Source of the DNA: a bacterium
GTDB lineage: Bacteria > Patescibacteriota > Patescibacteriia > Patescibacteriales > GWC2-42-12
Direction: 5' to 3'
DNA: 48,894 bases
NCBI GenBank assembly: GCA_030649205.1
Contig: JAUSGE010000028.1
Span: 1 to 48,894 of the forward strand
The translations under genes and the position numbers were made by a program. The stretch's first letter is position 1; each line of letters begins with the position of its first letter. The notes under the pieces are model-generated. The model was not told the origin of the DNA and did not search any database. It worked only from the letters and a program-made list of their open reading frames with translations. Shown here piece after piece: positions 1-1,753 of this stretch.

Positions 1-110
1 TTACGGGCGGCATCAGCCTGGCTTCGCCCCTTATCAAACATTTTTCCGGCTTTAAGCCGAACGCGTTCTTTGTCTTTGCGAGACAATGAAGATTTATGCG
101 AGTATTTCAT
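1..110 (-). CDS. Transposase N-terminus (HTH, IS630-like), cut by window edge
   Basis: Only the first 36 codons are inside the window; the ATG is at 110 and the frame is open to base 1. The peptide is basic and contains DKGRSQADAAR, the shape of the first helix-turn-helix of IS630-type and related transposases (G-x-S-Q-x-x-A-A-R). By family knowledge this domain binds the element's ends before a DDE catalytic domain, which would lie off-window. It runs divergently from the SEC-C/SLATT genes, and its start lies about 40 bases from the point where the SEC-C gene is decapitated, so the element end probably falls near 110-150. It could also be a stand-alone HTH regulator; the missing part decides. 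Confidence 0.5.
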   Translation of the reverse strand, partial: MKYSHKSSLSRKDKERVRLKAGKMFDKGRSQADAAR

Positions 111-154
111 ATGCCTTCATTATAGCACAAAGAATTAACTAGGTTAAGTATTAA

Positions 155-1068: not shown

Positions 1069-1263
1069 ATTTCAGCTAACGTTCGCGTGTATCTGAAGTT
1101 TTCATCCCGATTAAACTGGATAAATTTGATTATCAGACACACTCTTTTTAAATGTAACTCCACCCAAATCCTCATCAAACTAAGGGATGAAAATTTGGGC
1201 GGAGGAAAATTGGCACTCCTTAAGGATTTAATTGATGCCAATTTTCCATAGCCAGATACACGC
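1069..1263. repeat. Hairpin-dense non-coding block
   Basis: The 946-1318 interval holds no convincing gene. Three inverted repeats are directly visible: GCGTGTATCTG (1086-1096) with its exact complement at 1253-1263; 17-base arms at 1160-1176 and 1186-1202 with two mismatches; and 12-base perfect arms at 1204-1215 and 1236-1247 (GGAAAATTGGCA). The outer pair brackets the other two. The left edge (ATTTCAGCTAA, 1069-1079) resembles the XerD arm of the dif-like site at 1726. It could be a recombination site, an integron attC-like structure, or a structured RNA. Confidence 0.6.
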
Positions 1264-1264
1264 T

Positions 1265-1737
1265 GTTATGTGATGTAGACAGAAATTTCTTCTTCTTTAA
1301 TGTATATTTTTTGGCAATTTATTTTCGGCGAGATTCCAACCACTCCCCATAAAGCTCATCAATCTTTTTTGCCCTCTTGGCCGCCTCAAGAACTTTTTCT
1401 TGATCGCCACCCTCAAGAGCTTTAACAATATCATCTGGCTTCATTGAAAAACCACGAGAGTCATCGAGATAACGACCAACCCACTCACTTCCAGAGTCTA
1501 AATGTTTATGTAGATCTGTCCAGTCTGGGAATGCTTCCTTTACCTTGGCTACGAAATCTGCCGAATAACCTTCTTTGTGCTCTTGAGGCGGCACCTCGCC
1601 TTTAAATTTTTCTGACATAGTTTTTCCTTTAGTTATAAATAATACTTAAATTATATCACAAGCTATGTTCGACCTGAAATAAATTGCCAAAAAAATCTTA
1701 AAAAATAAAAAAGGAATTTCTGGCTATTTCACATAAC
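1265..1737. mobile_element. 473-bp module with ~58-bp inverted repeats carrying one gene
   Basis: Bases 1265-1322 and the reverse complement of 1679-1737 are imperfect copies of each other. The outer 23 bases match at 20 positions (starting GTTATGTGA) and the inner 16 bases are identical (TTTTTTGGCAATTTAT). The module encloses a single 99-aa minus-strand gene. The outer tips are XerD-arm-like, and the right tip forms half of the dif-like site at 1726-1753. Candidate explanations are a dif module (gene between inverted Xer sites), an integron-like cassette, or a MITE with cargo. No recombinase is encoded inside. Confidence 0.6.
1319..1618 (-). CDS. Small unknown cargo protein (99 aa)
   Basis: 99 aa, charged and probably mostly helical, starting MSEKFKGEVPPQEHKEGYSADF and ending in basic residues. 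There is no signal peptide or membrane segment. An AAAGGA site sits just before the ATG at 1618, so translation is plausible. I do not recognise a family. The stop codon lies inside the left inverted repeat of the module, so the gene is the module's only cargo. Its GC content is higher than that of the SLATT gene, suggesting a separate origin. It may be a small accessory protein (defence, antitoxin-like or adaptor), but nothing in the sequence settles this. Confidence 0.6.
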   Translation of the reverse strand: MSEKFKGEVPPQEHKEGYSADFVAKVKEAFPDWTDLHKHLDSGSEWVGRYLDDSRGFSMKPDDIVKALEGGDQEKVLEAAKRAKKIDELYGEWLESRRK

Positions 1738-1753
1738 TACTTATATGCGAACT
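1726..1753 (-). other. dif: XerC/XerD dif-like recombination site
   Basis: Read on the minus strand, an 11-base arm AGTTCGCATAT, a 6-base centre and an 11-base arm TTATGTGAAAT give the 11-6-11 plan of bacterial dif. From memory of E. coli dif, the XerD arm matches at 10 of 11 positions and the XerC arm at 8 of 11. It lies between the accessory island and the ribosomal operon. It could be the chromosome dimer-resolution site or a mobile copy used for insertion. A weaker, inverted half-match is at 1249-1276. Confidence 0.55.

Follow-up and report, generated by a model that had tools for sequence, protein, structure and literature searches.

A putative attI-type docking site and first gene cassette beside rplA in a CPR genome, and the Xer-like recombinase associated with such arrays

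Downstream of rplA in the window (the whole 48,894-nucleotide stretch analysed, which is contig C26 of a draft genome of 1.22 Mb in 50 contigs, a small size that, like the small genomes of its relatives, agrees with the CPR label) lies what is very probably, at roughly 88%, an attI-type docking site followed by the first cassette of an integron-like system. As judged from sequence, this system is common in these CPR bacteria and resembles an integron with a dif-like attI and an Xer-like integrase that is devoid of the I2 insert; it appears to function like an integron in its anatomy but falls outside the canonical definition of IntI. Its anatomy, orientation, boundary rule and association with one type of recombinase can be read directly from the genomes compared. 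Bacteria capture genes chiefly through integrons, a platform whose descent from Xer recombinases is held to depend on the gain of I2. If our reading is true, the I2-less enzymes that head attC arrays in many CPR genomes would make the I2-gain step directly testable, and the arrays would offer a route of gene exchange to reduced, host-dependent bacteria.

Anatomy of the site beside rplA

On the minus strand, positions 1753-1726 form a 28-mer with an 11-6-11 layout, AGTTCGCATAT-AAGTAG-TTATGTGAAAT, and the sequence TTATGTGATGT on the plus strand at 1266-1276 is identical to its right arm at 9 of 11 positions. Both had been recorded in a preliminary description of this DNA, as an Xer site and an inverted copy of its XerD arm, together with an inverted similarity of ~58 bp around a single 99-aa gene, and these observations hold. 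The two repeat ends align over ~60 bp with 79% identity (blastn, E 1.9e-7), reach a local score of 58 where 1000 dinucleotide shuffles reach at most 30, and contain a perfect 18-bp arm pair (1307-1324 and 1677-1694), with one 99-aa ORF between them. The general picture drawn there also stands, namely an Xer-type recombination site at the border of a mobile module whose ends are inverted repeats and whose cargo is a single gene. Its likening to the pdif modules of Acinetobacter, in which a gene lies between two inverted XerC/XerD sites, was given up: no XerC arm was found beside the plus-strand half-site (4 of 11 matches at 1249-1259, by eye), so there are not two inverted Xer sites. Instead, the two inverted "XerD arms" are the start and the R'' end of one cassette, and we read the 28-mer as an attI-type site, not as dif. 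The features are as follows, where C42 denotes a second contig of the same genome:

1909-2580, minus: rplA, the host gene adjoining the attI-type site (ORF and Pfam)
1754-1777, minus: leader of the attI-type site, CTAATTTTAAATATTAATTCAATA, base-for-base equal to that of the C42 site and similar to leaders in relatives
1737-1753, minus: constant (platform) part of the attI-type site, AGTTCGCATATAAGTAG, the same on C42 next to the recombinase; AGTTCGCATATAACTTG in relatives
1726-1736, minus: start of cassette 1, TTATGTGAAAT (the earlier XerD arm), which varies among attI copies
1080-1736, minus: gene cassette 1, spanning 657 bp with TT at one end and the G preceding the next cassette at the other, delimited by the G/TT rule of consecutive cassettes in relatives
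1679-1737, minus: 5' terminal inverted repeat of cassette 1 (alignment), a general cassette feature
1319-1618, minus: 99-aa cassette gene, an ORFan
1265-1324, plus: 3' terminal inverted repeat of cassette 1 with the R'' box at its end (alignment)
1074-1271, minus: attC-type site overall, found by the attC scan, folding far better than shuffled sequence (z -6.1 and -6.3), and one of the 11 sequences of the R1 alignment
1265-1271, minus: R'' box of the attC, ACATAAC
1253-1262, minus: L'' box, CGTGTATCTG, followed by the variable hairpin region
1086-1095, minus: L' box, CAGATACACG
1074-1080, minus: R' box, GTTAGCT, where cassette 2 begins
1-1079, minus: cassette 2, start and body, opening with TTAGCTGAAAT at 1079 and cut by the contig end
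354-905, plus: SLATT_4 2TM effector gene (Pfam PF18186, E 1.3e-51; PADLOC 2TM effector)

A terminator-like hairpin (1854-1887) comes after rplA. The start of cassette 1 (1726-1736) is complementary to the R'' box at 1265-1271 and, in an excised circle, would form an R' box (G+TTATGT). The 99-aa protein matched no Pfam, NCBIfam or PADLOC family, had no relative among 117 related genomes and yielded no viral relatives; its gene is passenger cargo, without relatives as is usual for cassette ORFs. The leader of cassette 2 is similar to the first cassette of another genome (G024, L047), and the SLATT_4 gene runs antisense to the array, either within cassette 2 or in an insertion into it. Two further ORFs were seen in this part of the window. 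In the stretch 155-905, a 70-aa ORF that has a weak SEC-C motif and is similar to PADLOC "E2" proteins in their tail runs into the beginning of the SLATT_4 gene, and is possible defence cargo of cassette 2; and at 1-111 (minus) an ORF start, MKYSHKSSLSRKDKERVRLKAGKMFDKGRSQADAARK, cut by the contig end, looks by eye like the N-terminus of an IS630-type transposase.

Cassette boundaries, complementary ends and predicted folds of attC-type sites

As in integrons (IntI/attI/attC, and the sedentary chromosomal kind), the cassettes consist of a gene plus an attC with R''-L''-L'-R' boxes, are joined between G and TT, and carry an R'' that is complementary to their own start. Across 48 consecutive cassette pairs, R'' agreed with the cassette's own start at 3.1 of 4 variable bases on average (23 perfect), against 2.1 for the start of the next cassette and 1.9 for permuted starts. 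In an excised circle the start joins the end and prolongs the attC stem, which accounts for the 58-bp inverted repeat: the predicted fold of the circle form of cassette 1 reaches -64.7 kcal/mol (z -10.4), that of the array form of its attC -46.5 kcal/mol (z -5.1). For canonical cassettes about six complementary bases suffice, whereas the cassette ends here are complementary over up to ~70 bp. Such long complementary ends are general in this system, with a median start/end alignment score of 33 for own ends and 14 for mismatched ends, and with 21 of 34 cassettes above the 95th percentile of the mismatched-end controls.

These ends could also belong to modules that have long inverted repeats at their termini (TT...AA, with inverted R boxes) and move alone, the attC hairpin being a separate element or a shared part of the platform. 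The 58-bp repeat and the frequency of long complementary ends are compatible with this, as is a 127-bp unit that precedes different hairpins at C42 and on another contig of the same genome, C49. However, an attC hairpin stands between successive modules, and an attI copy has a module immediately behind it with no hairpin in between, as expected for an insertion of attI x attC type; the own-start rule is equally predicted by integron circles. We consider it unlikely that the modules generally travel in this way. The 127-bp unit itself is non-coding and near-palindromic, has sharp ends (GTT and AAC), and its two copies (G000:C42:28-154 and G000:C49 at ~142.2-142.4 kb, L210) are 97% identical. 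It deviates from the rule of gene plus attC, and the different hairpins behind it are not predicted by simple cassettes of a body plus its own attC, so that modules with inverted R boxes at their borders may at times move on their own.

The attC sites fold with pairing of the R and L boxes, as in integrons. Eleven of them gave a gap-free alignment in which 96% of cells are paired and 10 of 17 pairs show double changes, a covariation count that is inflated, and circular if taken alone, since these R1 sequences were selected by stem length. The independent evidence for the attCs consists of their orientation (see below) and of matches to the covariance model R1, which were found in 46 of the 78 genomes of the order and, at E <=1e-5, in 57 of 380 genomes of the phylum. 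The window attC scores 29 bits with R1 through an alternative inner left arm, because its hairpin region is long. The textbook core GCCTAAC...GTTAGGC occurs in two genomes (G011 and G044), and some sites have GTTAGGC, whereas GTTATGT, GTTGTGC and GTTAGCT lack the strict GTTRRRY core of integrons, from which most R' cores depart. A conserved 2-nt bulge is located in the L' arm; in canonical attCs the extrahelical bases lie on the L'' side. Across genomes, CCCAAATTT is a recurring motif of the variable hairpin region of attCs at many loci.

We infer from this architecture that the recombinase would excise a cassette as a circle via the folded single-strand attC, that the stem of this attC would be lengthened by the complementary ends in the circle, and that the circle would be inserted at attI between G and TT.

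Copies of the attI-type site

At up to three mismatches the 28-mer occurs exactly twice in the 1.22-Mb genome (a reversed-pattern control gave 0). The second copy, at 143-170 of C42, has 43 bp in common with the window site, made up of the 24-bp leader and AGTTCGCATATAAGTAGTT, and stands ~60 bp upstream of the gene of a 284-aa tyrosine recombinase that is transcribed away from it. Related recombinases are preceded by a like leader and AGTTCGCATATAACTTG, and the bases that follow GTT differ among genomes (ATGT, GTGC, GTAC, AGAC, AGCT and AGGC). A left half that stays constant beside a right half that varies is how attI looks once different cassettes have entered; the exchange point in the window would lie between 1737 (G) and 1736 (TT). 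The proposal that the site serves as a landing zone is supported. A supposed third dif-like site on C42, at 12-39, turned out to be an attC that the contig end truncates to its left half.

The preliminary description had suggested looking for the site beside rplA in related genomes, and downstream of rplA it is absent in 9 of them, so that the copy in the window, an attI without integrase, is specific to this lineage. No integrase is adjacent to it, its array runs off the contig, and the C42 enzyme presumably acts on it in trans. Like CALIN and integrase-less attI sites, the window cassettes lie away from an integrase gene. The window copy differs in having an attI with its leader; a CALIN is defined by at least two attCs without an integrase, and one complete attC is present here before the contig end cuts the array. 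Attaching C42's attI to rplA by a misassembly at the contig end would explain why array and contig ends coincide on both C26 and C42 and why the two contigs have 43 bp in common; yet their right halves and flanks differ, and attI-like sites away from a recombinase also occur in other genomes (G011, G017, G026 and G040), some of them deep within long contigs (G040:C13 and G017:C28), which makes an assembly artefact improbable. The exact 18-mer has four scattered matches in the collection of genome contigs. One of them is L008 (JAUWQV010000006.1, labelled Methanocellales), which matches the attI core exactly at 588, has an attC-like hit of 37.6 bits at 2354, and may be a misbinned CPR contig or a cross-domain cassette.

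The recombinase and its place among known systems

The association of these arrays with one type of recombinase was assessed across genomes. attC sites were present in 24 of 26 recombinase-positive genomes and in 22 of the 52 without the recombinase (Fisher p 2e-5). In an adjacency list compiled by hand from tables and limited to nearby attCs, the tabulated sites number 67 and are spread over 36 contigs that carry the recombinase; every one of them is on the upstream side of the recombinase and divergent from it, with a median distance of 1.5 kb for the nearest. Both on C42 and in relatives the integrase is adjacent to attI with the array on the divergent side; an attI beside a divergent tyrosine recombinase, followed by one-gene cassettes, is also the layout of integrons.

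The C42 recombinase scores 245 bits for the XerA/"integron integrase" family NF040815 (cut-off 220) and 219.5 bits for the canonical IntI family TIGR02249 (cut-off 265). XerA acts on dif, whereas the CPR recombinase, which resembles XerA-type enzymes in exceeding their family cut-off, heads cassette arrays. Aligned to IntI4 (2A3V), it shows a gap opposite chain residues 179-239, and relative to IntI1 it is shorter by 31 and 10 residues in the part around I2; the catalytic residues of the recombinases are invariant. In a tree, two supported clades hold the CPR recombinases; these clades and IntI are separated from the two housekeeping Xer proteins included, and the tree gives no resolved branching order among IntI and the CPR clades. 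The only other tyrosine recombinase of the genome, on C5, scores as a housekeeping Xer. An enzyme without the I2 helix would have to recognise folded attCs in some other way; candidate features for this are the long stem formed by the cassette ends and the 2-nt bulge conserved in the L' arm. One variant was noted, the recombinase at G219:C5:2393-3307 (L200), which has ~20 additional residues at the I2 position that are unlike canonical I2.

Ordinary IntI, encoded in the genome or by a host, might instead move these as canonical cassettes, with the I2-less recombinase as an unrelated neighbour. The attC layout is indeed that of known integrons, and the G219 enzyme matches the IntI profile unsplit, to which it is nearest, yet its extra stretch (translation read by eye) is unlike the IntI1 insert. 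Against this, no canonical IntI above the cut-off was found in any of the 78 genomes of the order or the 55 attC-bearing genomes of the phylum (133 in all), the conserved attI adjoins the I2-less gene, and the adjacency, orientation and co-occurrence described above tie the attCs to that same gene, which leaves ordinary IntI a very improbable agent. Most improbable of all is the chromosomal dif of the preliminary description, acted on by the housekeeping Xer and joined by a dif-module-like insertion: despite the 11-6-11 layout, the dif-like arms and the housekeeping-like Xer of this genome, the site is not single and conserved, as a dif at the terminus would be, having two copies, one by a dedicated recombinase, a right half that varies with the cassette and no counterpart after rplA in 9 relatives, its second half-site has no XerC arm, and attC hairpins follow. 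GC skew along the window, one contig of a 50-contig draft, is mostly positive.

The attI-type reading places the system close to several known ones. It shares the 11-6-11 site, the dif-like arms and an Xer-type recombinase with Xer/dif and pdif modules, and differs from them in the variable right half, the dedicated recombinase, the folded attCs and the absence of a second full Xer site. It differs from integrons in an integrase without the I2 insert, a helix that cassette capture is stated to require and that is not known from other proteins (PMC7790495), and in its host phylum, since the phyla listed with integrons in a review do not include CPR (PMC8618304). Archaeal integrons likewise lie outside the classical phyla, but their IntIs carry the IntI-specific domain (PMC9668308), which the CPR recombinases lack. 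Searches that demand this domain, as in the method of that study, would miss the present arrays as complete integrons, and a groundwater survey with IntegronFinder kept complete integrons only (PMC12259885). In open PMC texts we found no description of CPR integrons or of I2-less integrases; subscription papers and preprints lay outside this search. On balance, we lean towards the view that CPR/Patescibacteria hold a widespread integron lineage with an I2-less Xer-like integrase, folded attCs, a dif-like attI and long complementary cassette ends, which may either survive as an intermediate between Xer/dif and IntI/attC or have solved single-strand cassette capture independently.

A compact example of such an array is found in a single-contig genome (G393), where the array runs from the recombinase through a 96-aa ORF, an attC, a methyltransferase-like gene and an attC, and continues with a NUDIX-like gene, an attC, a hydrolase-like gene and an attC (gene names by eye). 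This locus (G393:C1, L198), in which a reductase-like gene was also seen by eye, would make a good model locus.
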